This document shows, in pieces, positions 1,693 to 33,562 of a stretch of 36,394 nucleotides of DNA. The position numbers and the translations under genes are program-made. The stretch comes from a virus. Positions within the stretch are counted from its first letter, which is position 1; every line of letters starts with the position of its first letter. The notes below the pieces were generated by a model. It was not told the origin of the DNA. It was given only the letters and a program-made list of their open reading frames with translations, and searched no databases. The stretch is taken from IMG/VR virus record IMGVR_UViG_3300032249_000754, positions 1 through 36,394 of that record; one strand, written 5' to 3'.

Positions 1693-1701
1693 TTGACATA
1701 A
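1693..1701 (+). promoter_or_regulatory. TTGACATAA motif, copy 1
   Basis: Exact 9-base copy of a motif found seven times in this window, 24 bases before the ATG at 1717, which opens the tail tube block. An AAGGA lies between motif and start. It resembles a -35 box (TTGACA) or an extended -10 (TGA-CATAAA); no partner element at standard spacing is obvious. Confidence 0.5.
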
Positions 1702-1716
1702 AACAAGGAATATCTT

Positions 1717-2067
1717 ATGGCCGCAACTTCTATTGGTCTTTCCACGGTAGTCTTTGGGCTTGCCGCTGAAACTGGCGTTGTTGTTCAGAATTTTACCTCA
1801 ACTGAAACTGCTGAAACAACTGAAATTTCGAAGCATGACGGAACCTTTTCAGCGGTTGCGTTTTCTAATAAAAAGATAAATGTGAGCCTATCTGGAAATT
1901 GTAATGATTCAATAGGGAGCGTTGGGGCATCCCTTACTCTTGCGGCCAACGCAACTGCCGTTTGCTCTGGAACCTACTATGTAACAGACACGAGTTATAC
2001 GGAAACATCGGATGGATTTAATTCTTTCGATATTTCCGCAACCAAGTTTCCGTTCCTAAGCACCTAA
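1717..2067 (+). CDS. Tail tube-like protein, copy A
   Basis: The 116-residue protein has the layout (M.ATxIG.ST...FG.A...G.VVQ..T) seen again in the next gene, so the two are tandem paralogues. It is Thr/Ser/Ala-rich and predicted all-beta, as expected for a short tail tube or related beta-sandwich virion protein. The position just before the tail assembly chaperone pair matches gpV of lambda, but it is much shorter than gpV. The tube assignment rests on position and composition, not on a decisive motif. An AAGGA lies 7 bases before the ATG. Confidence 0.45.
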   Translation: MAATSIGLSTVVFGLAAETGVVVQNFTSTETAETTEISKHDGTFSAVAFSNKKINVSLSGNCNDSIGSVGASLTLAANATAVCSGTYYVTDTSYTETSDGFNSFDISATKFPFLST

Positions 2068-2071
2068 TTTT

Positions 2072-2425
2072 ATGCCAGCAACAATTATTGGAAATTCGAC
2101 TGACCTAGCCTTTGGCGTTGCGGATACGCAAACAGGCATGGTTGTTCAGTCTATTACCCACGCCAACTCTTCCGATGCCGTTGAGCTAAAGAACAAGGCT
2201 GGGGACACAACTTCTGTGGTGTTTCGCAACAAGCGTGTGACCTATACCGTTGAAGGGGCTTATACCACTTTTTCTGATTCCGTAGGAACAGACATCACCG
2301 TTGCCGGAGGCGAGACATTTGGCCTTTCAGGGGCGGCTTATGTGACTGAAATCACACGAACAAGAAGTGCAGACAATTTTGAGCAGGTCAGCTACAGCGC
2401 AGTCATCTACGATGGAATAGCCTAA
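2072..2425 (+). CDS. Tail tube-like protein, copy B
   Basis: The 117-residue paralogue of the preceding gene begins MPATIIGNSTDLAFGVADTQ. It shares the G-x-VVQ-x-x-T segment, the central F-x-N-K-x-(I/V)-x-(V/Y) strand and a similar C-terminal half. It starts 4 bases after the stop of copy A. Neighbouring gene order (tube, unknown, chaperones, tape measure) supports a tail tube or tube-associated role. Which copy is the main tube cannot be decided from sequence. Confidence 0.5.
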   Translation: MPATIIGNSTDLAFGVADTQTGMVVQSITHANSSDAVELKNKAGDTTSVVFRNKRVTYTVEGAYTTFSDSVGTDITVAGGETFGLSGAAYVTEITRTRSADNFEQVSYSAVIYDGIA

Positions 2426-2444
2426 CGGCTTTTCTGAAATCCCT

Positions 2445-3408: not shown

Positions 3409-3411
3409 TAT

Positions 3412-4179: not shown

Positions 4180-4180
4180 A

Positions 4181-5518: not shown

Positions 5519-5521
5519 TTT

Positions 5522-6127: not shown

Positions 6128-6507
6128 GAGAAGGTGAAAAAATAAAGGGGGCTGTTCCTAGTTTTGATGATGGCTCTGTTCTAACTATTAAATATTTGCA
6201 TGAGTTGGAAGATTCTGTAAAGACAAGAACCCCGCTTGCGGGAAGGGGAATTTCAATCACCCGAACAGATGAGGGGGCAAATATTTCCCTAGTTAATGGC
6301 GCAACAGCACAATATCTAAAGTATAATGCACTTAGTGTTAATGTTTGTTCTAATGGCGTTCCAGTTGAAATTGGCTTTGTGACAAAAACAGAGGATAACC
6401 CCTATTCTGGAATCTTCATGGTTCCTAGTGTTGTGACAATCCCTACTGGAGTTTATGATCAAGATCAGCCATTGTCATATCTTCAGATTGACACAACAAG
6501 AAAATAG
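6124..6507 (+). CDS. Distal tail-region protein, 127 aa
   Basis: ATG at 6124 overlaps the preceding stop (ATGA). The 127-residue product has a charged N-terminus (MREGEKIKGAVPSFDDGSVL), the motif LAGRGISITRTDEGANISL and a beta-rich C-terminal half. The G-x-G-I-x-I-x-x-x-x-x-G-x-x-I-S-L pattern is frequent in short attachment segments of phage tail proteins. It probably belongs to the distal tail or fibre base; exact role unknown. Confidence 0.45.
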   Translation: MREGEKIKGAVPSFDDGSVLTIKYLHELEDSVKTRTPLAGRGISITRTDEGANISLVNGATAQYLKYNALSVNVCSNGVPVEIGFVTKTEDNPYSGIFMVPSVVTIPTGVYDQDQPLSYLQIDTTRK

Positions 6508-6515
6508 AACCTAGG

Positions 6516-8399
6516 ATGAATGTTTTTACACTTCTGATTGATGTTGATGCTAAACAGCTTTTAGCAAATCGCTTTGGCGGAACCTCAACCCTTCCAAGAT
6601 TAGACCGAGGCGATGCGCCTAATTTTGAAATAGGCTTTCTTAAATACAATGGCATTGAATACGATTATTTAAACTTTCAAAACTCGGCAATAAAGTTTGG
6701 AATTGGGGTTAATGCGGCTACTCCCACAGATGGAGAATTTAAGTTAACCTTTAATGGAGTAACATCATCAGCCATCAGCTATAATGCCTCTGCGGCCTCT
6801 GTCCAAACAGCGATTGCCAATGCAATTTCGGCCTCAGTCACAACGGTTGCAGGGGTCAATTCTGCTTATCAAATTACAGCAACAACGGCAGGGGTTTTTG
6901 CAGGGACAACGGCTGGACTTGGCGGGGACTCCTTTTCCCTATATCCGGCATCTTCTGTTATCATCAACACGACAAGGAGCGCAACAGCCGGGGTTGCTTT
7001 AAGGCAAATTGTCCGCCTTGTTCAAAGCCCCGCAGTATTTCAAGATGTTTGGGCAAACTCCCAAACCACTGGCGGCGCAACTCTTTCACTTGCACAGCAG
7101 GGATCAGCGATACAAAGTGAGACATATTCCCTAGAAATTGATGACAATGTTTATGCGGGTCAATACAACCTTCTTTTCGGCAATCAGACCGCTGGAATTG
7201 CCTACAATGCCACCGCCGAACAAATACAGACAGAGCTTGCCAAGCTAACATCTATCGGCGAATACTTAGATGTAAGCGGGGTCAGCCAGCCCAATGTTAG
7301 GGTTTCTGGCGCAAATGGGAAATTTGGTATTGCCTTTGTTGGAAACCTATCACAGATAAACATTGCCACGGCATTTCTTGTAAATGACTCTGCATTGTTC
7401 CGCCCGCCGTATAAAACAGCTACGGTAACTTTCAATACGGCACAGATTGAGAACTTTCTAAACTCTGGAGTTACCGGGTTAAGTTTAGAGATTGAAATAT
7501 CGGACGGAGGAAAGCCTCAAACAGTCCTCTCAACCGCAGTAACATTTAATCAAAACGCCCTTATTGTTACTGGCTCTGCGGTTCCAGCCAACCAAGCGGC
7601 TTACCTAACGGCAACTGAAATTGCGGCTCAATATGTAGAGGATTCAACAGCTAATGTGGATGCCACAAATAGAAGGCTAAAAAACTCAAGCGGAACAACC
7701 GTTGTTGATTACGAGCAGTCGTTGTTCGGCAATGGTGCGCTTGATCTTTCTGGCTCCGGGGTCACAATTTCTTCATACCCGCTTTATGTTAATTCAACAT
7801 TGACCGTTGGCGGGGCTGTTAGTTTTGGCAAGAATCTTTATGTTAATTCAACATTGACCGTTGGCGGGGATGTTAGTTTTGGCAAGAATCTTTATGTTGC
7901 CACAGCCATTACTGCGGTTGGAGCGGTTAGCTTTGGGGGCGGGATGGCCGTCTCTGGGAATTTGGGATTCTTTGGAACCTCCCCAACAGCACAAGGCTCT
8001 GGGATAAATATAGCCAACTCCATAACAAAAAGCGGCATTATCTCGTTCACGCAACCAACCCAAGCCAATGTGGTTTCAAATATTATTTCCCTTGGCCTAA
8101 TTGCATCGTCTCCTACTTATGGAGTGTTGCCGCAATCTCCAAGGACTCTCACGGCAATAACTTATATCACATTTGGACTAGTTCCATCCAATAATGTTAT
8201 TTCTAAAACAGTTACAATTACTGGATGCCAACTGAATGACATTGTTTTGCTTGGGTTGCCCGCTGATGTTGAGGAAGGACTTTCTTTTAGTGGTCACGTT
8301 GTTAATGCTAATCAAATTCATATTGATGCCCTAAATGTGACTGGAAGTGGAAAGACACAAAACGCAACAACATTCAGAGTCACCGTCATAGGCTATTAA
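6516..8399 (+). CDS. Tail fibre / baseplate protein with internal repeats, 627 aa
   Basis: The N-terminal part (residues 1-55) starts MNVFTLLIDVDAKQLLANRF. Two copies of a module follow, in which a strand (FKLTFNGVTSSAISYNAS at about 73; YNLLFGNQTAGIAYNAT at about 213) leads into a helix (AASVQTAIANA; AEQIQTELAKL). I know this module from phage fibre and host-recognition proteins. Residues about 420-475 hold three 18-residue repeats (LYVNSTLTVGGAVSFGKN), encoded by a 54-bp tandem repeat. The C-terminus is beta-rich. It is likely a structural fibre component at the tail tip. Confidence 0.6.
   Translation: MNVFTLLIDVDAKQLLANRFGGTSTLPRLDRGDAPNFEIGFLKYNGIEYDYLNFQNSAIKFGIGVNAATPTDGEFKLTFNGVTSSAISYNASAASVQTAIANAISASVTTVAGVNSAYQITATTAGVFAGTTAGLGGDSFSLYPASSVIINTTRSATAGVALRQIVRLVQSPAVFQDVWANSQTTGGATLSLAQQGSAIQSETYSLEIDDNVYAGQYNLLFGNQTAGIAYNATAEQIQTELAKLTSIGEYLDVSGVSQPNVRVSGANGKFGIAFVGNLSQINIATAFLVNDSALFRPPYKTATVTFNTAQIENFLNSGVTGLSLEIEISDGGKPQTVLSTAVTFNQNALIVTGSAVPANQAAYLTATEIAAQYVEDSTANVDATNRRLKNSSGTTVVDYEQSLFGNGALDLSGSGVTISSYPLYVNSTLTVGGAVSFGKNLYVNSTLTVGGDVSFGKNLYVATAITAVGAVSFGGGMAVSGNLGFFGTSPTAQGSGINIANSITKSGIISFTQPTQANVVSNIISLGLIASSPTYGVLPQSPRTLTAITYITFGLVPSNNVISKTVTITGCQLNDIVLLGLPADVEEGLSFSGHVVNANQIHIDALNVTGSGKTQNATTFRVTVIGY
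7782..7943 (+). repeat. 54-bp tandem repeat (3 units) in fibre gene
   Basis: Units start at 7782, 7836 and 7890. The first two differ at a single base (c at 7816, a at 7870); the third is diverged. The period is in frame (18 codons) and encodes Y-V-x(10)-G-x-V-S-F-G-x-x. Near identity of units 1 and 2 implies a recent duplication. Confidence 0.9.
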
Positions 8400-9540: not shown

Positions 9541-9549
9541 TTGACATAA
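9541..9549 (+). promoter_or_regulatory. TTGACATAA motif, copy 2
   Basis: The motif lies 10 bases before ATG 9551 and 19 before ATG 9560, which open the lysis cassette. No ribosome-binding sequence is visible between motif and start, so a very short leader is possible. Confidence 0.5.
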
Positions 9550-9550
9550 A

Positions 9551-9730
9551 ATGATTGATATGGAAACCGTCATCTCCCTTATCACCTCACAGGATTGGCT
9601 TGCTTGGCTTGGCGCAATCACGGCCTTGCTCGGAGCGGTTATCGCAATCGCCCAACTGATTCCCGGCGATCAGCCGGAGAAAAGCCTGCAGGCCGTTCTC
9701 GATTTCCTCTCTAAATTTTCCCGCAAATGA
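9551..9730 (+). CDS. Holin-like small membrane protein, 59 aa
   Basis: The frame runs from ATG 9551 (MIDMETVISLITSQDWLAWL) to TGA 9728-9730, with an alternative in-frame ATG at 9560. One strong hydrophobic segment (about residues 18-38, AWLGAITALLGAVIAIAQLI) is followed by PGD and a soluble amphipathic helix (SLQAVLDFLSKFSRK). It opens the lysis cassette and overlaps the i-spanin start (ATGA). Small size, one membrane span and neighbours fit a holin that times lysis by forming inner-membrane lesions. The motif at 9541 favours the 9560 start on spacing. Confidence 0.6.
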   Translation: MIDMETVISLITSQDWLAWLGAITALLGAVIAIAQLIPGDQPEKSLQAVLDFLSKFSRK

Positions 9731-17450: not shown

Positions 17451-17459
17451 TTGACATAA
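17451..17459 (+). promoter_or_regulatory. TTGACATAA motif, copy 3
   Basis: The motif lies 35 bases before the ATG at 17486, the longest spacing of the set, in the 53-base gap after the HTH gene. No ribosome-binding sequence is evident before that ATG. Confidence 0.45.
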
Positions 17460-17485
17460 AATAAACACAGCCTAAAGAAATCCTA

Positions 17486-17791
17486 ATGGAGACCGCTCCC
17501 ATCGAGTCCGACCAGTTAAGAGCCGAAAGGCTCTTGTTGGAGCTATGCCCGGACAACTCCGAGCTTAAAAAGATCACGAAGGGCGGACGATCACAGGAGC
17601 GGATCAAGATGCTTCGGCAAGTCATCGAAAGGCTATTGCTCAACGGCATACCAACGGCGGTCATCGCCAAGACGCTAAAGATGGAACAGCCTGTCGTTCA
17701 GTATCACGCAAGATGGTTGGAAAAACACGGTCGGGTAAGCCGCCATAGCAAGTTCGCTCATTGGGTTTGGGCAAAAGGAACGGATGAATGA
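17486..17791 (+). CDS. Putative HTH regulator, 101 aa
   Basis: The product begins METAPIESDQLRAERLLLEL. Its helix-turn-helix-like core (LRQVIERLLLNGIPTAVIAK, then TLKMEQPVVQYHARWLEKHG) has the T-x-x-I-A-x-x-L-x-x-x-x-x-x-V-x-x-H-x-x-x-L pattern of small transcription regulators. It overlaps the methyltransferase start by 8 bases, so the two are coexpressed. Target unknown. Confidence 0.5.
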   Translation: METAPIESDQLRAERLLLELCPDNSELKKITKGGRSQERIKMLRQVIERLLLNGIPTAVIAKTLKMEQPVVQYHARWLEKHGRVSRHSKFAHWVWAKGTDE

Positions 17792-18519
17792 GCAACCAAC
17801 CCACCTCGATTTGTTCAGCGGTATCGGAGGATTTGCTCTTGCCGCTGGATGGGCTGGATTTGAAACCATTGGATTCTGTGAAATCGAACCATACTGCCAA
17901 GCCGTTCTTAAAAAGCATTGGCCGCAAGTCCCAATTCACACGGACATCAGAGAACTGCGGGGGGGGGGCAAAGAATCGATTTACTTACAGGGGGCTTTCC
18001 TTGCCAGCCATTCAGTTATTGCGGGAAGCGAAGAGGCAAAAATGATCACCGCAATCTCTGGCCGGAAATGTTGCGAATTATTAAAGAGCAAAGGCCGCTT
18101 GGGTCATTGGCGAAAATGTTGCTGGAATCATCAATATGGAACTCGACCAAGTGCATTCTGATTTGGAGTCCGAGGGTTACTCCGTGCAAACGCTACTTAT
18201 TCCAGCTTGTGCCGTTGGCGCAATCCACAGAAGAAACCGAGCATGGATTATTGCCAACAACAACAACATCGGAATGGAGAGGGGCGGCGAAGCAAAGATA
18301 TTTGGGGTCAAAAAAATACAGAGGAACAAAAATGGTGGAGGCTTTAAGGAACTCTGCGGAATGCCCCCAATATCTACACCCAGAATTTTCAGAGCTTGCG
18401 ATGGGGTTCCCGGATGGGTGGACAGACTTAAAGGATTGGGCAACGCCATCGTCCCGCAAGTCGCATACCAAATCATCAAAGGCATCAAAGAAGTGATGGA
18501 GCAATCCGATGAGAATTGA
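17784..18519 (+). pseudogene. C5 cytosine DNA methyltransferase, broken across three frames
   Basis: Frame A (from ATG 17784) has motif I, HLDLFSGIGGFALAAGWAGF, and GFCEIEPYCQ. After a run of ten G (17959-17968) homology continues in frame B with the catalytic motif IV GGFPCQPFS and LWPEMLRIIKEQRP. From about 18094, frame C has ENV (motif VI), AVGAIHRRNRAWIIA (motif VIII) and GLGNAIVPQVAYQII (motif X). Each break is explained by one missing base (a G in the run; one base near 18096). It may be a decayed gene, a phase-variable tract, or sequencing error. Frame B also runs on to 18496 with methyltransferase-like text. Confidence 0.7.
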
Positions 18520-19042
18520 CGGCCAAGACCCGGCGGACAGCATCGCCGCATCCTACACGGTCGATATGGCCGACCAAGTGGACAAGCTAGAGGATGTCGT
18601 TAGGGAAAGGCTGGCGTACCTAAAAGCCCAAAATCCGGCCATGAATTTGGACGAACTGGCAAGGGCAACGGCTCAAATCATAGAGGAGACGATCAAGACC
18701 GAGGCTGATAGCCCGATGCTCCGAACAAAAAGAGACGACACTTTGGACGAAGCCCTCTTAGCCCTAGCAACCAACCGAAGCCCAGACAGCCTAACGAGCA
18801 TTGCCAAACGCTACCTTAACCCAAACACAAACCGCCCATACACAAGAGCCGCCCTATCTGCACGGCTATCGGAGCTAACTCAAAGGACAGGGCTTGTCTT
18901 AAGAGTTCAACGGAGCGAGCGAGTCAGGCAAATCTACAAAGAGCGAGCCTTGAGGGTGCATGAAAGGCGGCGGAAGGAATGTCCGAAATGGAACAAGGAC
19001 GCATGGCAAAAGGGCTTAAAAAGGCGATGCAAAAAACGGTGA
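18509..19042 (+). CDS. Basic helical protein, possibly DNA-binding, 177 aa
   Basis: GGAG lies 7 bases upstream of ATG 18509, and the gene overlaps the end of the methyltransferase frame C by 11 bases. The N-terminal half is acidic and helical. The C-terminal half is strongly basic (LTQRTGLVLRVQRSERVRQI, then RVHERRRKECPKW). A central segment (SLTSIAKRYLNPNTNRPYTR) resembles the turn of an HTH as found in small terminase or sigma-like proteins. Family not recognised. Confidence 0.45.
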   Translation: MRIDGQDPADSIAASYTVDMADQVDKLEDVVRERLAYLKAQNPAMNLDELARATAQIIEETIKTEADSPMLRTKRDDTLDEALLALATNRSPDSLTSIAKRYLNPNTNRPYTRAALSARLSELTQRTGLVLRVQRSERVRQIYKERALRVHERRRKECPKWNKDAWQKGLKRRCKKR

Positions 19043-20052: not shown

Positions 20053-20526
20053 ATGAACGAAAAATATCCTCGCCTCATCACAAAAAAAATCAGCGAGCTT
20101 CAGCCCGCTTCATACAATCCAAGAAAAATTTCTTCCGATGCGTTGGGAAGGCTCACGAAAAGTTTAAGCGAGCTTGGGAATCTCCAGCCGATCACTTGGA
20201 ACGCCAAGACCGGGAACATTGTTGGAGGCCATCAAAGGCTAAAGTGCTATTCAGCACTTCAAAAAGAAGAGGTCGAGGTTTGGGCGGTTTGGCTAGATGA
20301 GGCGCAAGAAAAAGCGGCCAATATCGCCCTAAACAAATTGAGCGGAGAATTTGATTTGCCAGCCCTCAAAGACTTAATCGAAGAACTCGATACAGGCGAA
20401 ATCGACTTGGATATCACAGGCTTTGGGGCTGATGAGCTTTGCGAACTCATGGAGCAGACAAAACCAGACGAAAAAGAGGGCGGGGACAGCGGAGAAAAAT
20501 GCGAGGCTTGCGGGCGACCGCTATGA
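20053..20526 (+). CDS. ParB/Srx-like N-terminal domain protein
   Basis: The 157-residue product contains the ParB-type fold signature: SELQPASYNPRKIS (14-27), L-x-x-S-L-x-E-L-G-N-L-Q-P-I (34-47) and IVGGHQRL (56-63), where G-G-H-Q-R is the conserved nucleotide-binding box. Phage proteins of this type often precede terminase genes and may have nuclease or CTP-binding activity. There is no HTH domain as in true ParB, and no methyltransferase domain as in some fusions. A C-terminal C-E-A-C-G pair could bind metal. It probably acts in DNA processing before packaging. Confidence 0.65.
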   Translation: MNEKYPRLITKKISELQPASYNPRKISSDALGRLTKSLSELGNLQPITWNAKTGNIVGGHQRLKCYSALQKEEVEVWAVWLDEAQEKAANIALNKLSGEFDLPALKDLIEELDTGEIDLDITGFGADELCELMEQTKPDEKEGGDSGEKCEACGRPL

Positions 20527-23438: not shown

Positions 23439-23447
23439 TTGACATAA
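23439..23447 (+). promoter_or_regulatory. TTGACATAA motif, copy 4
   Basis: The motif begins 2 bases after the terminase stop and 21 bases before ATG 23460. GGGGA lies 5 bases before the start. It opens the gpW-portal unit. Confidence 0.5.
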
Positions 23448-23696: not shown

Positions 23697-26488
23697 AGAA
23701 AAAGGCCGAACTGAATCTGATCGACAAGGCCATAGCCTTCGTCAATCCGCAAGGTGCGGTGGATCGCCTTCTTGCCCGACAGAAGCTCAAGAACTTTGAA
23801 TATGATGCGGTAAAATATAGCCGGGAACGCAAGGGGCCAAGCTCACTTTCTGGGGCTGAAGATTATCGCTCCAACTATGATCGTGTAGAGTTGATGAAGC
23901 GGGCGAGGGACTTGGCCGAAAATGTCGGCTTGGTTCGCTCAATCCTTTTGAAGTTTGCAGGTCATGTTGCGGGAACAATCAGCTACCAAGCGAGAACGCA
24001 GAATCCCCAAGTAAACACCGATGTCGAAGCCTACTGGAACGAATGGTGGGACAAGTGCGACATATCCACAAGGCATACAGGTTCGACCCTTATGCAAGTG
24101 GCGGTCATGTCGATGTTGCGGGATGGTGACTTCCTTTTTGTTTTGGTTCGTGATTCCAATGGAGACCTAAAAATTCAAGGCATTGAGGCCGACCGACTCG
24201 GTGACCCTTTTAAAGTTTATACCAGCCTAGAGCTTATCGGCGGAATCCATATCGATCGCAACACAGGTGCACCCACGGCTTACGATATTTACAACCGAAG
24301 CATCGGGGATTTTTATAGCTACCAAATCACCATTCCCTCAAGCCAAGCCTTCCACCTTTTTGACCCGCTACGCATCGACCAGTATCGTGGCGTTTCGGCC
24401 TTTCATACGGCCATCAATGACGCAACCGACATTCACGAACTTACCAGCTTTGAAAAGATGGCGGCCAAGGTTGCAAGCTCCCAAAGTGGAATCGTAAAGC
24501 GCAACAACAACAATGCCGCCGACCTTTCCACACTTTCAACCGAAGAGGACATCAGCGGGAATCAGATCAAGCTAGAAACGATTGAGTCGGGAAAAATTTC
24601 CTACCTAGAGCCGGGTGAGGATATAATTTTCCCCAACGGCCCAAGTCGCCCTAGCGGAGCGTTCATCGAGTTTCACAAAGTTCTAATGCGGAATATCTGT
24701 CTTGGACTTGGTATCCCATATTCCTTTGCGGTTGATCCTTCCGCCATGTCTGGCCCGACCGCTCGCCTAGAAATGCAACAAGCGGGGCGCACCTTCAAGC
24801 GGTACCAGAATCTTTTAAATGATAAGGTGCTTCGCCCCATCAAGAACATCGTAATTGCAGACGCAGTTGCTAGGGGATTGATCCAAACGAGCGAGGGCGG
24901 AAAAACTACTAGGGGCATTTTCAATTTCGGGGCGAATGTTTCAATCGACCTTGGGCGGGAATCGGCAAGTGCAATCGCAGAGTTTAAGAGCGGACTTCGC
25001 ACAGGCTCCGACATTTATGCAGAGCGTGGTTCAGATTGGGAGGCTTCGATGCGTCAAAGGGCAATCGAGGCAAAAGCAATTCAAGACTTGGCGAAGGAAT
25101 ATGGAGTCCCGCCAGAAACAATCAGCGATGTTGTCCCGCCAGAAAAACCAGCCCCAGCCGCCCCAGCACCAAAGCCACAACTAGCACCGAAACCCGATGA
25201 GGACGAACAAGACGATGGCGAGGAACCAGAGAATGCACCCGAACCAGATGAACCGATTGAGCCTTCTTCGGAAAATTTAGAAGTTAAAAAAAAAGATACT
25301 GAAGAGGTATTAGCAAAGCTAGACCCCGCATCTATTAAGATGCTGATTCAAGGGATGATGGGCGGTATCGAGCTAGGGAAATACGATGGGATAGACTTCA
25401 CGCCCCCACAAGGAGCTAGGGATGCGGCTAAGAGAGCTTTGGATGTTAGGGAAGGCAAGCCAGCAAGCCAAAGGGGAATGACCCCGGTCGGCATCTCCAG
25501 AGCAAGGGATTTGATGAATGGTGTGAACCTCTCCCCAGATACCGTCCGCAGAATGAAAGCCTTCTTTGATCGCCATGAAGTCGACAAGAAAGGTGCAACT
25601 TGGGACGAACAGGGCAAGGGATGGCAAGCGTGGCACGGATGGGGTGGTGATGCTGGCTTTTCTTGGGCAAGGAAAGTAGTTGGGCAGATGGAAGAAAGGG
25701 ACAAAAAAGAACTAGCAGAACCAGCCTCTTGCCCAATCGCAACTCAAGACATCAAAACCAATCTAGCCAATAGGAAGACAGCGGTTGATGATGCGAACTA
25801 CGGCCCAGCCAACCCTAATGAACCTAATGAGGATTATTGGAAAGCCAAGGCAGACGAGTTCCAAGGCGATGTAGCCACGGCCAAAAAGATGCTTTGCGGT
25901 AATTGTGCGGCCTTCGACCAAAGGACTAAAGTTCTTGGGTGTATTAAGAAGGGCATCGGCGAGGATGCAAATGAAGTCGCTATTGGTGGCAATCTAGGTT
26001 ACTGCGAGATTTTTGATTTTAAATGTGCGGCCAAAAGAACTTGTGACGCTTGGATTGTGGGTGGCCCAATGACTGATGAGAAGGCAAAGGAACTAGCCCG
26101 ACCCGGCCCCAAGTCTGCGGCACAAACTCCCGCACCTCCCAAGGAGCGAATCAAAGGCTCCAAGGAGAACCCAGAAGGAACAGCATCCACCAGAAGCAAA
26201 GCTGGCGACATAGAGATTTCAGCCGAGAACGAGGAGGCATTGAAGAGCAAGATTGACGAGTTCAAGGACAAGCACCCCTCAAGGAAAGCCCCTAGCCTTG
26301 GAGCATTAAAAAAAGTGTTTCGCAGGGGGGCGGGTGCGTTCTCCACTAGCTTTAGGCCAACGATTACCGGGGGTAAGCCCAACTCACGCAACGCTTGGGC
26401 GATGGCTAGGGTGAACAAGTTTCTAAAGATGGCTGGCGGTGGAGAGGTCAAAGAATCCTATCGCAAGGCAGACGGAGACCTTCTTTGA
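23693..26488 (+). CDS. Portal protein (GpB type) fused to three C-terminal domains, 931 aa
   Basis: Residues 1-480 match the lambda gpB/portal family (NLIDKAIAFVNPQGAVDRLL; RDGDFLFVLVRDSNGDLKIQ; PYSFAVDPSAMSGPTARLEM). A Pro/Glu-rich linker covers about 480-525. Residues 542-665 hold an unnamed phage domain (FTPPQGARDAAKRALDVREG; MKAFFDRHEVDK). Residues 679-800 have paired cysteines (CGNCAAFD; FKCAAKRTCDAWI), perhaps metal-binding. Residues 821-931 resemble a DUF5824-type domain (RRGAGAFSTSFRP; WAMARVNKFL; ADGDLL). It forms the DNA entry ring; extra domains may process or line the head. No internal stop or start suggests separate genes. Confidence 0.75.
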   Translation: MKKKAELNLIDKAIAFVNPQGAVDRLLARQKLKNFEYDAVKYSRERKGPSSLSGAEDYRSNYDRVELMKRARDLAENVGLVRSILLKFAGHVAGTISYQARTQNPQVNTDVEAYWNEWWDKCDISTRHTGSTLMQVAVMSMLRDGDFLFVLVRDSNGDLKIQGIEADRLGDPFKVYTSLELIGGIHIDRNTGAPTAYDIYNRSIGDFYSYQITIPSSQAFHLFDPLRIDQYRGVSAFHTAINDATDIHELTSFEKMAAKVASSQSGIVKRNNNNAADLSTLSTEEDISGNQIKLETIESGKISYLEPGEDIIFPNGPSRPSGAFIEFHKVLMRNICLGLGIPYSFAVDPSAMSGPTARLEMQQAGRTFKRYQNLLNDKVLRPIKNIVIADAVARGLIQTSEGGKTTRGIFNFGANVSIDLGRESASAIAEFKSGLRTGSDIYAERGSDWEASMRQRAIEAKAIQDLAKEYGVPPETISDVVPPEKPAPAAPAPKPQLAPKPDEDEQDDGEEPENAPEPDEPIEPSSENLEVKKKDTEEVLAKLDPASIKMLIQGMMGGIELGKYDGIDFTPPQGARDAAKRALDVREGKPASQRGMTPVGISRARDLMNGVNLSPDTVRRMKAFFDRHEVDKKGATWDEQGKGWQAWHGWGGDAGFSWARKVVGQMEERDKKELAEPASCPIATQDIKTNLANRKTAVDDANYGPANPNEPNEDYWKAKADEFQGDVATAKKMLCGNCAAFDQRTKVLGCIKKGIGEDANEVAIGGNLGYCEIFDFKCAAKRTCDAWIVGGPMTDEKAKELARPGPKSAAQTPAPPKERIKGSKENPEGTASTRSKAGDIEISAENEEALKSKIDEFKDKHPSRKAPSLGALKKVFRRGAGAFSTSFRPTITGGKPNSRNAWAMARVNKFLKMAGGGEVKESYRKADGDLL

Positions 26489-26493
26489 CATAA
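26485..26493 (+). promoter_or_regulatory. TTGACATAA motif, copy 5
   Basis: The motif includes the portal stop codon (TGA at 26486-26488) and lies 20 bases before ATG 26505 of the protease gene. No ribosome-binding sequence is visible between them. Confidence 0.5.
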
Positions 26494-26504: not shown

Positions 26505-27629
26505 ATGCCCCTACCTACCCCCAGAGGAGACGAGTCGGAACAAGATTTTGTTGGAAGGTTTATGGCTAACGAACAAGCCATCAGCGATTTTCCGGATGAA
26601 AAACAGAGAGCGGCGGTTGCTTATAGCACCTATCGTGACGAAGATGCAGAGATGGAGGAGTTAGAGTTGGGCGGGGTCTCAATCCTTGAGGTAGGCGAAG
26701 CAAAGGGGCATGATCTGTTTGTAGATAGAAAAAGCCTAGAAGCCGCCCTCGAAATTATGAAGTCTGCAAAGAATGGCGTTAAGGTAAAGATGAACCACGG
26801 CTCTGGGCTGGACGCAGTAGTGGCGTTTGCACGCAATCCTCGGATCGAAGGCGACAAGCTGGTTGCCGACCTTCGCCTTCTCCGCAACTCCCCGCACTAC
26901 GGCCTCATCAAAGAGATGGCCGCAGAAGCTCCCGACCAGTTTGGCGTTTCCTTGGCTTTCGTGAATGAGTCCGAGACCATCAATGGCAAGGACTATATCC
27001 GACCCCAATCCATCGCTTCCGCCGACCTAGTAAGTAGCCCTGCGGCAACGAACGGACTTTTTGAGGAGATGGTTAAGTTCATGCAGAAATTTGCCGAGAC
27101 CCAGACCAAATGCTCTGGAGAAACAATCAAAATGGGATATATGGTTGGCGGCAAGCCGATTCCCACCGATCTGCCCGAAGCCCAAGTTGAGGGCGAGGGT
27201 TTGACAAAAGGAGAAAACACAATGGAAAACAAAGATTACGGTAAGGAAGTGGAAGATATCAAGGTGCGCCTCGCCAAACTGGAAGAGGCCATGTCTCCCA
27301 AAGAAGAGGAAAAAAAGCCTGAAGCTCCTGAAATCGAAGTGAAGGTTGAGCCTTCCGAGAGTGAAGAGGAAATGGGCAAGGGCAAAGTCAAGACCGAGGA
27401 GATGAGCGAAGTGGTGAAGAAAGTTCTCACCGAGTTCGGCATCAAGCCTGTTCCGGCTTCCCCGGTGATCGAAGAGGCTCCCAAGAAGGATGAGCCGAAA
27501 AATTTTGAGGCTCTTGTGGCGGCTCATGCCGATTACGGAACTTCAAAGCTGAAGGCCATGAAAGCCGTCATGCTCTCCAACCCAAAAGAATATGCCGAGG
27601 CTCTTGGCCGTGGCATTAGCAAAATCTAA
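26505..27629 (+). CDS. Head maturation protease with C-terminal scaffold region
   Basis: ATG 26505 (MPLPTPRGDESEQDFVGRFM) is chosen because the motif at 26485 lies 20 bases upstream and an earlier ATG at 26439 is inside the portal gene. Residues about 65-215 show a prohead-protease-like core (VKVKMNHGSGLDAVVAFARN; DQFGVSLAFV; SADLVSSPAATNGLF). From about 240 on the protein is acidic and coiled-coil-rich, as in scaffolds. The position matches lambda C/Nu3. It would cleave scaffold and portal during head maturation. The catalytic residues cannot be named with certainty. Confidence 0.65.
   Translation: MPLPTPRGDESEQDFVGRFMANEQAISDFPDEKQRAAVAYSTYRDEDAEMEELELGGVSILEVGEAKGHDLFVDRKSLEAALEIMKSAKNGVKVKMNHGSGLDAVVAFARNPRIEGDKLVADLRLLRNSPHYGLIKEMAAEAPDQFGVSLAFVNESETINGKDYIRPQSIASADLVSSPAATNGLFEEMVKFMQKFAETQTKCSGETIKMGYMVGGKPIPTDLPEAQVEGEGLTKGENTMENKDYGKEVEDIKVRLAKLEEAMSPKEEEKKPEAPEIEVKVEPSESEEEMGKGKVKTEEMSEVVKKVLTEFGIKPVPASPVIEEAPKKDEPKNFEALVAAHADYGTSKLKAMKAVMLSNPKEYAEALGRGISKI
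27222..27629 (+). CDS. Nested in-frame scaffold protein (Nu3-like), 135 aa
   Basis: An in-frame ATG at 27222 is preceded by AAAGGAG (27207-27213), a near-perfect ribosome-binding site 8 bases upstream, inside the protease gene. The product (MENKDYGKEVEDIKVRLAKL...) is acidic and helical, then Pro/Glu-rich, then a helical end for capsid contact (KAMKAVMLSNPKEYAEAL). Lambda makes its scaffold Nu3 from exactly such an internal start in gene C. The internal site is seen; the use of it is inferred. Confidence 0.6.
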   Translation: MENKDYGKEVEDIKVRLAKLEEAMSPKEEEKKPEAPEIEVKVEPSESEEEMGKGKVKTEEMSEVVKKVLTEFGIKPVPASPVIEEAPKKDEPKNFEALVAAHADYGTSKLKAMKAVMLSNPKEYAEALGRGISKI

Positions 27630-27645
27630 CAAAGGATAAAATAGA

Positions 27646-28008
27646 ATGAGCACCAATATTGATAATAATTTTCGGACGTTCAGCACATCGTCCGCTATCT
27701 CGGCTTATCGCCTTGTTCAGCCCTCCACGGTGACGGCTGGCGGGGTTGATGTGGCTGTAACCGGGGCGACCAAGGCCATCGGAGCCACCATTGATGACGG
27801 AGCGGCTGGCGGTTATGTGACCGTGAAGTTGTTTCACCCCACCTTCTTCGCAGTCGTCTCGGGCGTTGCGGCAGTTGGTGATGTTTTGAAATTCGATGCG
27901 GCTGGTCAAGTGACCACGCTGGCGGCTAATCTGGTTACGGCTGGTGTCGCTCTCGAAGCGGCCACCGCCACCTCGGCTGTCATCGAAATCGCCGTTCCGA
28001 TGTTCTAA
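27646..28008 (+). CDS. Head decoration protein (gpD-like)
   Basis: The 120-residue protein is Ala/Gly/Val/Thr-rich with no Cys (MSTNIDNNFRTFSTSSAISA; VVSGVAAVGDVLKFDAAGQV) and lies between protease/scaffold and major capsid protein, the place of lambda gpD. Its G-A-T-K-A-I-G-A-T and V-K-L-F-H-P-T-F-F-A-V-V-S-G segments fit DUF2190/decoration-type beta proteins. It likely binds the expanded capsid as a stabilising spike. Confidence 0.65.
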   Translation: MSTNIDNNFRTFSTSSAISAYRLVQPSTVTAGGVDVAVTGATKAIGATIDDGAAGGYVTVKLFHPTFFAVVSGVAAVGDVLKFDAAGQVTTLAANLVTAGVALEAATATSAVIEIAVPMF

Positions 28009-28039
28009 GGATTAACCCAAACAAAGAAAGAATAAGAAA

Positions 28040-29005
28040 ATGAGCTATATCTCTGGTGGAACAACGATTCGGGCAGACATCAACCAAGCGTTGGTGGAAG
28101 CCCCCAATGGCGATACCGGGCTGATCGGTGCGGAAATTTTCCCACTTCTGCCTGTTCCCGCCAAAAGCGGTCAGTATCTCAAGGTTCAGTTGGCACAGGC
28201 CGACCTCCTCAACAACGACTCCAAGGCTCGTGACGCTGGTTCGGGCTATGCTCGCGCCATCCGTGCCTTCGGGACGGACACCTATGACACCGTTGAATTC
28301 GGGTTGGAAGAACTAATTGACGATGCGTTTCGCGCTGATGCGGATCGCTTCTTTGATCTTGAGGCTTCCTCGGCTCGCTTCCTCCTCCGCCAAATCAAGC
28401 TCGGCCATGAGAAGCGTGTGAACGACATCGTTAATGCTGGCACTACCCCCTTCACCACCTCCGACCAATCCGCCATCTCCGCATATACCAATGCGAACCT
28501 TGGCAATATTGATGTGGCTGGCGATGTGGCGAATGCCCGCACCGAACTCAACAAGTTAGGGTATGAGGCCAATACGGTTATCATGTCCGCCCCTGTGTTC
28601 GAGCGTATCCGCCGGACTACCAAGCTCCAGAATCAGTTCTTCGGGGTTATCTCCGATACTGGCGGTCGCTTGCTCTCCGAGGCTGAAATCGCGGCGGCTC
28701 TTGGCGTTCAGAAGGTTCTCGTTGGTCGCGCGGCGATCAACTCGGCCAACAAGAACAAAGCCTACTCTGGTGGGTTTGTGTTCTCCAACAGCTACATCAC
28801 CGTTGCCAATGTGCAGAGCGGCCAGTTCACCGCTGGTGGAATCGGGCGCACCTTGGTCTGGTCGGTTGATGCCCCCGGAGGCTTCGTCTCCGAGAGCTAT
28901 CGTGATGAGGCTCGCCGGAGCAATGTGCTTCGGGTTCGCATGAACACGGCTGAGAAGCTGATTGATGCGAATGCGGGTGTGCGTATCACCACCAGCTTCG
29001 CCTAA
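28040..29005 (+). CDS. Major capsid protein (gpE-like)
   Basis: AAAGAAAG precedes ATG 28040. The 321-residue product has typical HK97-fold text: an N-arm (IRADINQALVEAPNGDTGLI), a spine helix region (FFDLEASSARFLLRQIKLGH), an A-domain part (YEANTVIMSAPVFERIRRTT) and a C-terminal V-S-E-S-Y-R-D-E-A-R-R-S-N-V-L-R-V. The codon use is visibly GC-richer than neighbours, fitting high expression. It is followed by a strong terminator. Confidence 0.8.
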   Translation: MSYISGGTTIRADINQALVEAPNGDTGLIGAEIFPLLPVPAKSGQYLKVQLAQADLLNNDSKARDAGSGYARAIRAFGTDTYDTVEFGLEELIDDAFRADADRFFDLEASSARFLLRQIKLGHEKRVNDIVNAGTTPFTTSDQSAISAYTNANLGNIDVAGDVANARTELNKLGYEANTVIMSAPVFERIRRTTKLQNQFFGVISDTGGRLLSEAEIAAALGVQKVLVGRAAINSANKNKAYSGGFVFSNSYITVANVQSGQFTAGGIGRTLVWSVDAPGGFVSESYRDEARRSNVLRVRMNTAEKLIDANAGVRITTSFA

Positions 29006-29028
29006 AGAATAGATTGTGTGGTTCCTTG

Positions 29029-29070
29029 GAGGGGCTAGAGCCTAAAAAACTCTAGCCCCTCTTTCTTTTA
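29029..29070 (+). terminator. Intrinsic terminator after the capsid gene
   Basis: GAGGGGCTAGAG (29029-29040) pairs perfectly with CTCTAGCCCCTC (29050-29061) across a 9-base loop, giving a 12-bp stem followed at once by TTTCTTTT. It separates the head module from the glycan block, and a TTGACATAA motif follows 5 bases later. Confidence 0.92.
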
Positions 29071-29074
29071 TGAA

Positions 29075-29083
29075 TTGACATAA
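29075..29083 (+). promoter_or_regulatory. TTGACATAA motif, copy 6
   Basis: The motif lies directly after the terminator and 29 bases before ATG 29104. Terminator then motif is the arrangement expected if the motif belongs to a promoter for the glycan block. Confidence 0.6.
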
Positions 29084-29103
29084 ATCCCCTCTTGAAATCC
29101 TTT

Positions 29104-30765
29104 ATGAGAAATCCTCTGTCTGTTTACCTTATTTGTGGCGGCAATGAAGCCGAATATCTCGAAAGATGCCTTAGCTCCTTCAAGCCCATTGCGAAGGAGT
29201 TTGTTGTTTGCTTGGCTGGGGGGAGCAATCCGACAACCGAAGAGGAGAAAGTTGCACTGGCTCACGGTGCTAGAGTTGTTCATTATAAGAATCAAAGAAC
29301 GGACTGGCCTCATATAGATGACTTTGCCGCCGCAAGGAACACGGCCTTGGATGCTTGTTCCGAGAAGTGGGCAATGTGGGTGGATGCCGATGATGAGATG
29401 CAACCGGGGGCAGAGGCGGTTATTGATGAAGCTATAACTAAGGCAGAGGAAAGGGGCGCACAGCTTATCGCATTTAGGTATTTCGTGGCTAACGCTGGTT
29501 TGATCCCACTAAGGGAGATGGTTTCCTTAAGGGGAAAATGCAAGTGGAAGAATCGGGTTCACGAAATGCTTGTGGCTGAGGATCAGTCAAAGATTTTTGG
29601 CATAGATAAGGTGGTTAGGGTTCACAATCCTAAGGGATACAAAAAGACTTCGGCAGATAGAAATTTTGCAATTCTTAAAGACACCCTAGAGCCAACCCCA
29701 AACGCTCTTTACTATACCCAACAAGAGCATTTTTTAACCCAGAATTGGGCGGACTGCTTAAAGTATGGCAAGTTGGCAATTCAATTTCCAGAGCTAGAGG
29801 ACACGCTTCGATATGATGTTCTTTGCAACATGGGAAGATGCGCCCCCACAGGCGAGGAGAAGCTAAAATATCTTGGGGAGGCTATTGCTATTCAGCCGGA
29901 TCGAAGGGAAGCCCACTATTGGATGGCGGTTGAATATTCTGCAAGGGGGCAATGGGTAAAGGCATGGGGAGCGGCAAGAGCGGCGATGAGTTTACCAAGG
30001 CCAACTGCCCATTACTGGAATTTAGTCGAAGCTATTTATCAATGGCAATCTTTGGACATTTATGAAACTGCCTCTGTTTGTGTAAGTAAAAAAGAGGAGG
30101 CCGAAAAGATTAAGAAGTCAAGACCAGCCCCTAAAATCTCAATCATTCACGCAACCAAAGGAAGGCCGCAGATCGCTTGGCAAAGGAGGCAACAATGGCT
30201 GATGCTGGCAAAAAACCCTCTTGAGATTGAGTGGATTTTTGTTGTCGATCACGATGACCCACAAGATTACACCCCCCATCAAGCCATCCGATGCAATCCC
30301 GGCGGAATCGTGAATGCTTGGAACTATGGAGCAAAACAAGCCAAGGGGGATATCTTGGTTCAAATGTCGGATGACTGGAGCCCGCCGAGGCATTGGGATA
30401 CCCTAATTTCGACCGCTATGGGGGCTACAAATGAAGAGAAAGTTCTGGCAATATCTGATGGGCTTAGAACCGATAAACTCCTTTGTATGGCGATTATGAC
30501 GCAAAAGAGGCTTGAGAAGCAGGGGGGCCATATGTTCGACCCCGATTACCAAGAGAGTGACGGCATCTATTCAGACAATGAATTTACAGAAAGAGCTTAT
30601 GGTGATAGAGTTGTGATTGATGCCAAGCATATTCAATTCAAACACGAAAACCCTCTCTTTACAGGCGGAAAGCCGGATGATCTAATTAAGCACCACAACA
30701 AGCCAGAATTTTATGAGAAAGGAAAAGCCATCTATGAAAAAAGAAAAGCCGCAAATTGGAATTAG
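29104..30765 (+). CDS. Two-domain glycosyltransferase with central TPR-like region, 553 aa
   Basis: ATG 29104 is preferred over TTG 29092. The N-terminal GT-A domain (SVYLICGGNEAEYLERCLSS) has F-A-A-A-R-N (74-79) and D-A-D-D-E (94-98), the metal and sugar-nucleotide site. About 200-330 is helical and repeat-like (YLGEAIAIQPDRREAHYWMA; YSARGQWVKAWGAARAAMSL), a TPR. A second GT-A-like domain starts at 341 (ISIIHATKGRPQIAWQRRQQ) with V-D-H-D-D and S-D-D-W near 422. It probably transfers two sugars. It opens the glycan block. Confidence 0.7.
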   Translation: MRNPLSVYLICGGNEAEYLERCLSSFKPIAKEFVVCLAGGSNPTTEEEKVALAHGARVVHYKNQRTDWPHIDDFAAARNTALDACSEKWAMWVDADDEMQPGAEAVIDEAITKAEERGAQLIAFRYFVANAGLIPLREMVSLRGKCKWKNRVHEMLVAEDQSKIFGIDKVVRVHNPKGYKKTSADRNFAILKDTLEPTPNALYYTQQEHFLTQNWADCLKYGKLAIQFPELEDTLRYDVLCNMGRCAPTGEEKLKYLGEAIAIQPDRREAHYWMAVEYSARGQWVKAWGAARAAMSLPRPTAHYWNLVEAIYQWQSLDIYETASVCVSKKEEAEKIKKSRPAPKISIIHATKGRPQIAWQRRQQWLMLAKNPLEIEWIFVVDHDDPQDYTPHQAIRCNPGGIVNAWNYGAKQAKGDILVQMSDDWSPPRHWDTLISTAMGATNEEKVLAISDGLRTDKLLCMAIMTQKRLEKQGGHMFDPDYQESDGIYSDNEFTERAYGDRVVIDAKHIQFKHENPLFTGGKPDDLIKHHNKPEFYEKGKAIYEKRKAANWN

Positions 30766-30994: not shown

Positions 30995-31581
30995 CCCTTC
31001 AAGACCCATTCGGCCAAGCCCTAGCAAAATACAGCGAGAGGCTTTCCCTTGGGGTTGAGATAGGTGGCGGAACCGGGGACGGCTCCACGCAATGCATCAA
31101 GACAAGGGAATTATTCAGCTTTGAGATTCATCCAGACCGCATAGGCCGACACAAATATAACCTTGACTCAAGACAGGGCGGAATGGCAATCAACTGGCTT
31201 TCCAGCAATCCGATGATGTGGATGAGCCTAAAGGATGTTGAAGATTTTTATAGGACAACCAGAACTAACCTAAATCAATATTGCCTAGAAGAAATTACGG
31301 AATGGCACAAAGAAGATTTTAGGGTTTCTAAAAATTATACTTGGGGGCATCCATCCATTAAAGATGAGGCCGACTTTCTACTATTAGATGGAGGGGCATT
31401 TTCTGGGCGAGCTGATTTTATGGCTTGGTTCCCCAAGGTTAAAGAGGGCGGCATCATCGCTCTAGACGATACAAACGACATTAAGAATTACGGAAATTAT
31501 CAATGGCTAAAAACAGCGGGGCATGATCTTTTATGGGAGGAGCAGTCTTGGAGGAATGGAAGTGCCATCTTTAGGAAATGA
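30982..31581 (+). CDS. Class I SAM-dependent methyltransferase-like protein A, 199 aa
   Basis: Motif I is visible as VEIGGGTGDGST (25-36), with an acidic residue at the end of the next strand (SFEIHPDR). ADFLLLDGGAFSGRADF and GGIIALDDTND fit later strands of the Rossmann fold. The substrate may be a sugar or small phage/host molecule, judging by the glycosyltransferase neighbours. It overlaps the next gene by 4 bases (ATGA). The methylation activity is inferred from the fold. Confidence 0.6.
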   Translation: MQEITLQDPFGQALAKYSERLSLGVEIGGGTGDGSTQCIKTRELFSFEIHPDRIGRHKYNLDSRQGGMAINWLSSNPMMWMSLKDVEDFYRTTRTNLNQYCLEEITEWHKEDFRVSKNYTWGHPSIKDEADFLLLDGGAFSGRADFMAWFPKVKEGGIIALDDTNDIKNYGNYQWLKTAGHDLLWEEQSWRNGSAIFRK

Positions 31582-32123
31582 TCGAGCATATTTATGAAGG
31601 GGAATGCTTCGAGGAAAATTGGTTTACCGATTCCTATGTCTATAAGACCATGGTTCAAAATTGCAGGAACAATGGAGCCATCGTTGAGCTTGGGGCTTGG
31701 AAAGGTAGAAGTTCAGCCTTCCTAGTTGTAGAGGCAAAAAACAAAAGCAAAGACATCCAAGTTCATATTGTGGACACTTGGAAAGGATCACAAGAGCATA
31801 CGGAAAGCATGACGGATGGCTTGTATGAAAAGTTTATTTCAAACATGGCTCCCCTCAATGGCCTTTATCATGCCCACAGAATGACAACCAACGAGGCATC
31901 AAAATTGTTTGAAGATGGCTCCTTGGATGGTGTTTTTATAGATGCCGATCATTCTTATGAGGCAGTAAAGCAAGACATTCAAAACTGGCTACCCAAAATT
32001 AGGGTTGGCGGGATATTGGCTGGGCATGATTATAACTCAACATTCCAAGAGGTAATGAAAGCTGTGAATGAGCTTTTGCATGGGTTTGGGCTTTATGGTC
32101 AATGCTGGATAAAAGTATGTTGA
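31578..32123 (+). CDS. Class I SAM-dependent methyltransferase-like protein B (Methyltransf_24 type), 181 aa
   Basis: VELGAWKGRSS (36-46) is motif I. VHIVDTWKGS and DGVFIDADHSYEAVKQDI, then GGILAGHDY, fit the Methyltransf_24/cephalosporin-hydroxylase-like family often seen in glycan modification clusters. ATG 31578 overlaps the previous stop. The product differs clearly from its neighbour A, so it is not a recent duplicate. Probable role: methylation or modification of a sugar made by the flanking transferases. Confidence 0.65.
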   Translation: MIEHIYEGECFEENWFTDSYVYKTMVQNCRNNGAIVELGAWKGRSSAFLVVEAKNKSKDIQVHIVDTWKGSQEHTESMTDGLYEKFISNMAPLNGLYHAHRMTTNEASKLFEDGSLDGVFIDADHSYEAVKQDIQNWLPKIRVGGILAGHDYNSTFQEVMKAVNELLHGFGLYGQCWIKVC

Positions 32124-32884
32124 CCATCTTCACCATCGTCTTAAATGGCGAGCCATTCATAAGCAAAAAGCTAGAAATTTATCAAAAGCTAACTATCCCT
32201 TGGCAATGGAGGATTGTGGAGGGAGTAAGCAACCCGATCAACTGCACAAGATGGTGCAAGCAAGTTCCCGACAAATGGCACAAGGAATTTCTATCCATAG
32301 ACGGAACGCATGAATATCTGCAAAACCTAAAGCACGATAAGGTTAAAATCTATTCTCAAAACAAGCCCTTCAATGGGAAGATCGAGATGGTAAACAATGC
32401 TCTTAATGGAGTGGATTGCGGGGTGGTTATGGAGCAAGACGCTGACGAATTTTGGACAGAAAAACAGATGGAAGATGTTTACAGGCTTTTGATTGACCGA
32501 ACACCCGGAACCACGGCACAATTTTTTTGCCACTATCATATAGGAAAAAAGGTTGTGGTTTCACGCTCTGGCCTTGGGGCTTATCCTTACGAATGGTATA
32601 GGGCATGGAAATGGGGGGAAGGCATTGAGTTTACCAGCCATGAGCCGCCCATTTTAAATCATCAGCCAATCAGAATCCCAAGGGGAATCACAGAGGAGAT
32701 GGGGCTAGTGTTTGACCACTTTGCCTATTCGACAAAAAGCCAAGTTGAATTTAAAGAAGATTTTTATGGCTATGCAGGGCTTTTAAAATCTTGGGAGGAA
32801 TTACAAAAGACCCATGGCCCTGTTAGGATCAATAGATATTTTGCCCATGTCCAAGACAGGAGCGTTGTTGATGATGCAACCTAA
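32117..32884 (+). CDS. Glycosyltransferase, GT-A type, 255 aa
   Basis: ATG 32117 (MLTIFTIVLNGEPFISKKLE) overlaps the preceding stop; the frame is open to 32102. The GT2-type N-terminus (F-T-I-V-L-N-G-x-x-F-I) and E-Q-D-A-D-E-F-W near residues 105-112 give the D-x-D metal-binding site. The C-terminal part is Tyr/Trp-rich. It would transfer a sugar to a phage glycan or host surface molecule. It overlaps the next gene by 14 bases. Confidence 0.65.
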   Translation: MLTIFTIVLNGEPFISKKLEIYQKLTIPWQWRIVEGVSNPINCTRWCKQVPDKWHKEFLSIDGTHEYLQNLKHDKVKIYSQNKPFNGKIEMVNNALNGVDCGVVMEQDADEFWTEKQMEDVYRLLIDRTPGTTAQFFCHYHIGKKVVVSRSGLGAYPYEWYRAWKWGEGIEFTSHEPPILNHQPIRIPRGITEEMGLVFDHFAYSTKSQVEFKEDFYGYAGLLKSWEELQKTHGPVRINRYFAHVQDRSVVDDAT

Positions 32885-33557
32885 AGTTATAAAATACCAA
32901 CAAAGGCTTGGGGATGTTCTTCAATGCCTCCCCGCCTGTAAATATCTAGCCGACCAAGGGCATGAGGTTTTATTCGATTGCTTCGAACAATATCATGGCG
33001 TGTTTGATTTGGTGTCCTATGCGAAGCCAATGGGTGCAATCCCATTCAATGCAGATATTATTGATCTTGAGGTATGGCCTAATAAATATATTGATTACAG
33101 AAAGAGCAGAAAGACTTGGACTGATTTTGTTTATTCAGACCCAAGGATCAAAGACGCAGACAAAACAAACATTATTCTGGACAGGCTTGGGGAAGAAAAA
33201 GCGGAAGGACTTCCAGAAAAGTATCATCTGATTGCCCCTTTTGGAATTTCTCAAAACACACAGCATAGCCCACTTAAAATCATTCAAGAGGCGGCAAAGG
33301 AATTGGGTAAAGATAATATCATTGTTCTTTGTCCAAGAGATATCCGCATTGAGGGGCTTGCTACCTATACGGCTCCAAGCGTTGAACAAATGGCTAAGGC
33401 TATAAGGGACGCAGACCAATTCTGGGCGATTAACTCATCTCCTATCATTTTGGCCTCTACGGTAAGGCGGGGAAAGGAAAGCAAATTTTGGGGGCAAAAA
33501 GGAGAGTTTGAATCAGACAATGTTCCATTGTTTGAGGGGCTTATAAGGATAGATTGA
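32871..33557 (+). CDS. GT9-like heptosyltransferase-type protein, 228 aa
   Basis: ATG 32871 (or 32874) follows AGGAG at 32858-32862; the frame is open to 32814. The start MMQPKVIKYQQRLGDVLQCL, then PACKYLADQGHEVLFDC, matches the G-D-x-L-x-x-x-P-x-x-x-x-L signature of ADP-heptose:LPS heptosyltransferases. HLIAPFGISQNTQHSP and the D-Q-F-W-A-I-N-S-S-P region near the C-terminus match the second GT-B half. At 228 residues it is shorter than typical (about 320-350). It may act on LPS-like sugars. Confidence 0.6.
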   Translation: MMQPKVIKYQQRLGDVLQCLPACKYLADQGHEVLFDCFEQYHGVFDLVSYAKPMGAIPFNADIIDLEVWPNKYIDYRKSRKTWTDFVYSDPRIKDADKTNIILDRLGEEKAEGLPEKYHLIAPFGISQNTQHSPLKIIQEAAKELGKDNIIVLCPRDIRIEGLATYTAPSVEQMAKAIRDADQFWAINSSPIILASTVRRGKESKFWGQKGEFESDNVPLFEGLIRID

Positions 33558-33562
33558 CATAA
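33554..33562 (+). promoter_or_regulatory. TTGACATAA motif, copy 7
   Basis: The motif contains the stop codon of the GT9-like gene (TGA at 33555-33557) and lies 20 bases before GTG 33574, which opens the connector/tail block. AGGTGG sits 5 bases before that GTG. Confidence 0.5.

Follow-up and report, generated by a model that had tools for sequence, protein, structure and literature searches.

In the current study, we analyzed a 36,394-base virus record (IMGVR_UViG_3300032249_000754; here called the window), whose genes include terminase, head-tail adaptor, portal, major capsid, and glycosyltransferase genes, and found that every plus-strand copy of the hexamer TTGACA in it lies shortly before a start codon. 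We regard this box as a phage start-associated regulatory element, most probably a promoter, and as such it seems to be of a type not described among phage promoters before. We consider it fairly probable that late genes are transcribed from this box, (W/T)TTGACA, as a promoter element, with leaderless or short-leader mRNAs that start about 19 to 20 nucleotides (nt) past its first T. From its placement, strand bias, preferred spacing, and adjacency to terminators, the avoidance of its reverse form, and the lack of a -10 element, all of which are present in the sequences, we infer a promoter role, a start point, late timing, and a dedicated reader.

A preliminary description of the window had reported seven exact plus-strand copies of the 9-mer TTGACATAA, at 1693, 9541, 17451, 23439, 26485, 29075, and 33554, and a single minus-strand copy in an HNH gene. 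These coordinates were borne out, and the eight copies on both strands compare with 0.34 expected from dinucleotide shuffles, none of 100 of which reached eight. The 9-mer is nevertheless not the conserved unit; that unit is TTGACA, and bases 7 to 9 vary among relatives, such that the orthologous site after terminase reads TTGACATAA, TTGACATAG, TTGACACAA, TTGACACTA, or TTGACAGAG. Two more plus-strand hexamers thereby join the set, at 6488 (before 6516) and at 27201 (inside the protease open reading frame [ORF]), and each of the nine lies 19 to 35 nt upstream of a start codon (from the first T: 19, 20, 20, 21, 21, 24, 28, 29, and 35 nt). All nine fall in the zone 10 to 45 nt before a start, which makes up 6.2% of positions (binomial P of 1.4e-11, using a start list that we compiled ourselves, with the nested start at 27222 included and the protease start entered as 26497, where the sequence places it at 26505). 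The bare hexamer is not over-represented in the window (11 found, 9 on the plus and 2 on the minus strand, versus 19 expected), and the signal therefore lies in position and orientation. The minus-strand 9-mer copy inside the HNH gene (exact, at 21592-21584) is probably a chance occurrence and was left out of the member set.

A further block of late genes (lysis, tail, packaging and head, capsid-distal, or connector) would begin at each box, often right after a terminator. The copy at 1693-1701 stands 24 nt before a tail-tube-like gene (1717-2067), while that at 6488-6493, in the form TTGACACAA, stands 28 nt before the gene at 6516-8399 and has a GAACC word 19 nt past its first T. The box at 9541-9549 precedes the lysis block. 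It had been taken as the shortest case, at 10 bases; an in-frame ATG does lie at 9551, 10 nt away, but the probable start is the in-frame ATG at 9560, which matches the orthologous start in genome G008, likewise at a distance of 19 nt. Further along, the box at 17451-17459 lies 35 nt before a helix-turn-helix gene (17486-17791; GAAATCC at 17477), and that at 23439-23447 lies between terminase and the head-tail adaptor (ATG at 23460; distance, 21 nt). The box at 26485-26493 overlaps the portal stop codon 20 nt before the protease start (ATG at 26505), and that at 27201-27206, inside the protease gene, precedes a nested ATG (27222) by 21 nt. The last two are at 29075-29083, 29 nt before the glycosyltransferase gene (ATG at 29104), with GAAATCC at 29094, 19 nt past the first T, and at 33554-33562, which overlaps the stop codon of 32814-33557 and precedes a GTG at 33574 by 20 nt. 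Boxes are absent over much of the early region, with gaps of 7 to 16 kb; the late timing that we propose is suggested by these long gaps and by the genes served.

The nested, scaffold-like C-terminal part of the protease ORF (27222-27629) is preceded by a box of its own and, in the window, also by a Shine-Dalgarno sequence. The box inside the protease gene would thus permit separate expression of the nested scaffold.

A search of related phages, which the preliminary description had named beforehand as a test, showed that the box is strongly strand-biased there as well. Terminase and capsid searches gave 157 loci, from which distant matches were dropped for the group 1 count; group 2 comprises 81 loci, with a 44% identical terminase and a GC content of 58%. 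TTGACA is split 432:13 between strands in group 1, which makes it the most asymmetric of the 4096 hexamers, and 387:47 in group 2; the group 1 counts take in overlapping and redundant contigs, the nonredundant group 1 set being 104 sites, 98 of which have a start codon within 60 nt downstream. The exact 9-mer is found 144 times on the coding strand of the loci from the terminase and capsid searches and 3 times on the other. In group 2, the core is longer, TTTGACA, with the leading T present in 56 of 60 sites. Orientation tracks gene direction in complete records (G004, which is stored in reverse, has 10 copies on the minus and 2 on the plus strand), the box stands before several unrelated gene families after terminators, and the nested start with its box inside the protease gene recurs in many group 1 relatives and in group 2. 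The best isolate match to the terminase, Akkermansia phage Moulinsart, showed no strand bias (TTGACA, 7:7), which indicates that the wider family does not have the box throughout. When genomes were scanned with the window terminase, only distant prophages came up. Scanning viral contigs for a 29-base pattern (72 stretches) mainly turned up relatives of groups 1 and 2, the unrelated matches being without consistent strand bias. Our literature searches found no description of a TTGACA start-box motif. A tyrosine integrase is encoded in 4 of 5 group 2 genomes (G001, G002, G003, and G005), and group 2 is probably temperate; group 1 records, including the window, gave no integrase or resolvase match.

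Inside genes, the reverse complement of the box is strongly avoided. Measured against synonymous-codon shuffles, which preserve protein and codon usage, TGTCAA was seen 5 times in group 1 genes versus 72 expected and 4 times in group 2 genes versus 29 expected (TGTCAAA, 1 versus 12). Plus-strand TTGACA is also depleted in group 1 genes (36 seen versus 111 expected), and nearly all of these 36 stand before a start, either nested or following. No avoidance was seen for control words such as TTGACC, TGGACA, and TTCACA, most controls being near or above expectation in the group 1 shuffles. Avoidance of the antisense form argues that the box is recognized as DNA, as would be expected if spurious antisense starts were harmful. 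Group 1 coding sequences do, however, avoid very many short words resembling restriction sites, so avoidance alone is no proof of a promoter, and it is the combination with placement that carries the argument. Strongly avoided words in group 1 coding sequences include GCAGC, ACGT, GGWCC, GGYRCC, RGATCY, GTYRAC, GTAC, CAATTG, and others, which suggests hosts rich in restriction systems.

The box is also closely tied to terminators. The copy that had been described as directly following one is that at 29075, behind an intrinsic terminator on the plus strand after the major capsid gene (29030-29069; -24.6 kcal/mol). Promoter and terminator consensus scans of the window revealed no excess and missed this hairpin, the loop of which is longer than the scan permits. 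Among the relatives, the box directly adjoins a strong, T-tract-bearing hairpin at 19 of 104 sites in group 1 and 17 of 127 in group 2 (13 to 18%), versus 1 of 838 and 4 of 662 starts without a box (<1%) and about 1% of random places. Viewed from the other side, a box lies within 30 nt after 11 of 16 strong plus-strand terminators in group 1 and 18 of 27 in group 2. Often, the box plus 13 to 16 nt make up all that separates the terminator from the start codon. It is possible that these terminators are leaky.

Distances to the start codon, counted from the first T, are bounded below. In group 1, 4 of 98 were shorter than 19 nt and 54 of 98 were 19 to 22 nt; in group 2, there is a sharp rise at 19 nt (1 site at 18, 34 at 19, 16 at 20, and 9 at 21), and the twelve distances of 11 to 15 nt probably include chance ATG or GTG codons. 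Where no start codon lies at 18 to 23 nt, the word GAAAYCC usually begins there (at 17 to 21 nt in 19 of 26 sites and at 18 to 20 nt in 20 of 26), the start codon in group 2 lying further on. That start codon and GAAAYCC share a landing point about 19 to 20 nt past the first T argues for a fixed 5′ end of the message, and the 19-nt limit, together with the common position of GAAAYCC, suggests leaderless transcripts.

GAAATCC(T) lies close before the window starts at 2445, 8421, 17486, 19354, and 29104, as well as in relatives, and may be a ribosome-binding or 5′-end signal; the 9-mer GAAATCCTA is split 88:0 between strands. Differing small hairpins (AGCC/GGCT, GGGG/CCCC, and GAGG/CCTC) directly precede the GAAATCC start after the tail-tube genes, at about 2415-2444 in the window and in loci L107, L108, L119, and L153, and could possibly act as an attenuator. 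Words resembling TTTAACAAAGGA are enriched before starts without a box (about 34790-34816 and 27620-27645 in the window, and relatives) and are possibly a second class of start signal. In group 2, a GTTGC-rich/AAGCAAC inverted repeat brackets the box and start of a small-terminase-like gene (L066, 7884; L068, 42; L221, 7914), and hairpins between box and start showed no convincing covariation in that group.

TTGACA is the exact sigma-70 -35 consensus. As the preliminary description had proposed, however, no usable -10 follows the box: -10-like hexamers 15 to 19 nt past it occur at 7.7% of group 1 sites versus 7.9% of controls and at 3.1% versus 3.1% in group 2. Nor is anything strongly conserved upstream in either group, including where a -35 would lie. 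The suggestion of an extended -10 did not hold up, since the invariant part is TTGACA and not CATAA(T), with a T at the T-7 equivalent in only 2 of 34 sites; the T-7 and -10 counts led us to reject both the extended -10 and the -35 readings of the box. What the data do support is the accompanying proposal of a phage- or host-specific promoter with a reader other than ordinary sigma-70, and they are consistent with a near-leaderless message: the element is start-associated and one-directional, opens transcription blocks, and has no usable -10. Domain searches found no Sigma70_r2 match in the window and no Sigma70_r4 match above the cutoff in 11 genomes, with a weak partial match in the candidate helix-turn-helix protein of G004 discussed below. 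PF00940 (single-subunit polymerase) gave no match, in the control genomes as well as here. The longest window ORF, of 931 amino acids (aa), is the portal. T7-type phage promoters are conserved over about 20 bp and are read by a phage single-subunit polymerase; no conserved sequence was seen here beyond the box.

We envisage that RNA polymerase would be directed to the box by a phage or host factor reading that single box and that RNA would start about 19 to 20 nt downstream of its first T, so that the message would be leaderless or almost so, opening at the start codon, or else would carry a leader that contains GAAAYCC. We propose tentatively the fuller picture of a one-box late promoter of tailed phages, about 20 bp before the start point and lacking -10 and -35 elements, with a 5′ end fixed at the start codon or GAAAYCC leader and a previously undescribed specificity factor, possibly belonging to a helix-turn-helix family shared by both groups. 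The shared protein, of about 170 aa (18509-19042, plus strand, in the window; 27843-28352 in G002), is encoded before the terminase genes in both groups, which have few genes in common (terminase subunits, portal, tail tube, a ParB-type gene, and a phosphatase). Its similarity between groups is weak but consistent (hhalign P of about 6e-5; probability of about 65%), with matching N-terminal SYTxDMAxxID stretches. Structure models were poor (pLDDT of 68 and 65), and a fold search gave no significant match. It is a candidate reader of the box; a host factor is equally possible. Nearby in the window, a DNA methyltransferase-like gene is seemingly split into two overlapping ORFs (17784-18161 and 18136-18519), and the ParB-type gene of the window (20053-20526) is without the methyltransferase part that G008 and G006 have.

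Several observations weigh against a promoter of this design. Group 1 distances are looser than those of group 2, and at some group 1 sites a Shine-Dalgarno sequence lies only 3 to 8 nt past the box, upstream of the proposed start point; those sites would need another start or a read-through message. The Shine-Dalgarno core is found in 0 of 41 group 2 short-class sites, but Shine-Dalgarno sequences are not above background at group 2 starts overall, and their absence by itself is therefore no argument for leaderless messages. Plus-strand TTGACA is not depleted in group 2 genes (35 seen and 35 expected); many of these copies precede nested starts, yet a good part are not near a start or are off the motif geometry. 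GAAATCC also precedes starts without a box, the capsid gene itself has no box, and we know of no RNA polymerase holoenzyme that matches a lone hexamer at about -20 to -14. Alternatively, the box might act at the RNA level, as a translation-side signal rather than a promoter, which we regard as unlikely. Its nearly fixed spacing to the start codon (above all in group 2), its occurrence ahead of nested and coupled starts, for which no separate promoter is needed, and the background level of Shine-Dalgarno sequences in group 2 would suit such a signal. The strong in-gene avoidance of the reverse complement, on the other hand, is not predicted by it, and the distance is bounded below but tails up to 44 nt; terminator adjacency and the keeping of the spacing to GAAAYCC in place of a start codon likewise count against it.

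It is distinctly unlikely that the boxes are stoperator-like sites, i.e., asymmetric boxes at which a bound repressor blocks elongation, as in L5-type mycobacteriophages. Although the box is asymmetric, one-directional, and situated in short gaps at gene starts, with avoidance at the DNA level and integrases in group 2 phages, it has only 6 to 9 conserved bases (a core of 6 to 7 bp with weak flanks) rather than 13, also lies within coding sequence, precisely spaced from starts, and is just as conserved in group 1, which gave no integrase or resolvase match. Neither the 19- to 20-nt geometry nor the posttermination placement is predicted by a repressor site, and no cognate repressor was identified in either group, although no search was aimed at repressors. 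Ordinary sigma-70 promoters of which the -35 hexamer alone is visible seem very improbable. Besides the consensus hexamer, site 6488 has TAGGAT at 18 nt; but -10-like hexamers are no commoner than in controls, the window has no excess of sigma-70-type sites, and RNA would begin within the gene, beyond the conserved start codon. We give scarcely any credence to a recombination linker, a conserved junction word for module swaps among related phages: it would explain boxes at block borders and before several unrelated gene families after terminators, but it has no need for in-gene avoidance, orientation with transcription, or a kept start distance, and homologous exchange takes more than six bases.

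If the promoter reading is true, the box defines a promoter architecture that is new in consisting of one box, and sequence could be used to recognize operon starts, nested genes, and late regulons in a large group of uncultured phages. Because it is a textbook -35 hexamer in the wrong place, standard promoter tools misread it. It also raises a testable question, namely, how RNA polymerase is directed to a start without a -10.

For each of the sigma-70, start-associated sequence (SAS), and stoperator classes, the box lacks a defining feature that we tested. The L5-type stoperator 13-mer, GGTGGMTGTCAAG, holds TTGACA on its other strand. Like the box, the stoperators of cluster A mycobacteriophages are asymmetric, oriented with transcription, and located in short intergenic gaps; they differ in being 13 bp long and bound by the immunity repressor of temperate phages, and fixed start spacing and terminator adjacency are not among the features given in the available part of their description (PMC9283540). 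The SAS of cluster K mycobacteriophages, GGGATAGGAGCCC, is similarly a short asymmetric repeat at many gene starts, mostly in one orientation and of unproven function, but it has 16S rRNA pairing potential and lies immediately before the start (PMC3203893), whereas about 13 nt separate the end of the box from the start, and the box includes no Shine-Dalgarno part. The 21- to 22-bp intergenic repeats of the T1-like phages TLS and Stevie also lie upstream of starts, along transcription, in terminator-rich phages; they are longer, of another sequence, and about 76 nt from starts (PMC11447400, PMC4319613). Our candidate helix-turn-helix protein is placed similarly to the RinA/Ltr late regulators of Gram-positive phages, which, however, recognize longer repeats, located upstream of promoters that have a TATA-type -10 (PMC13123087), no relation in sequence having been shown. 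Finally, the UCS (ATNTGA) of yeast cytoplasmic linear plasmids, which are virus-like elements, is a six-base box, usually 20 to 40 nt before each ORF; transcription requires it and is unaffected by sequence lying farther upstream (PMC6211774). It is of another sequence and unrelated, and is probably read in the yeast cytoplasm by a plasmid-coded poxvirus-like polymerase; as a short box at a set range before starts, it is nonetheless the closest resemblance in working to the TTGACA box (PMC6211774).

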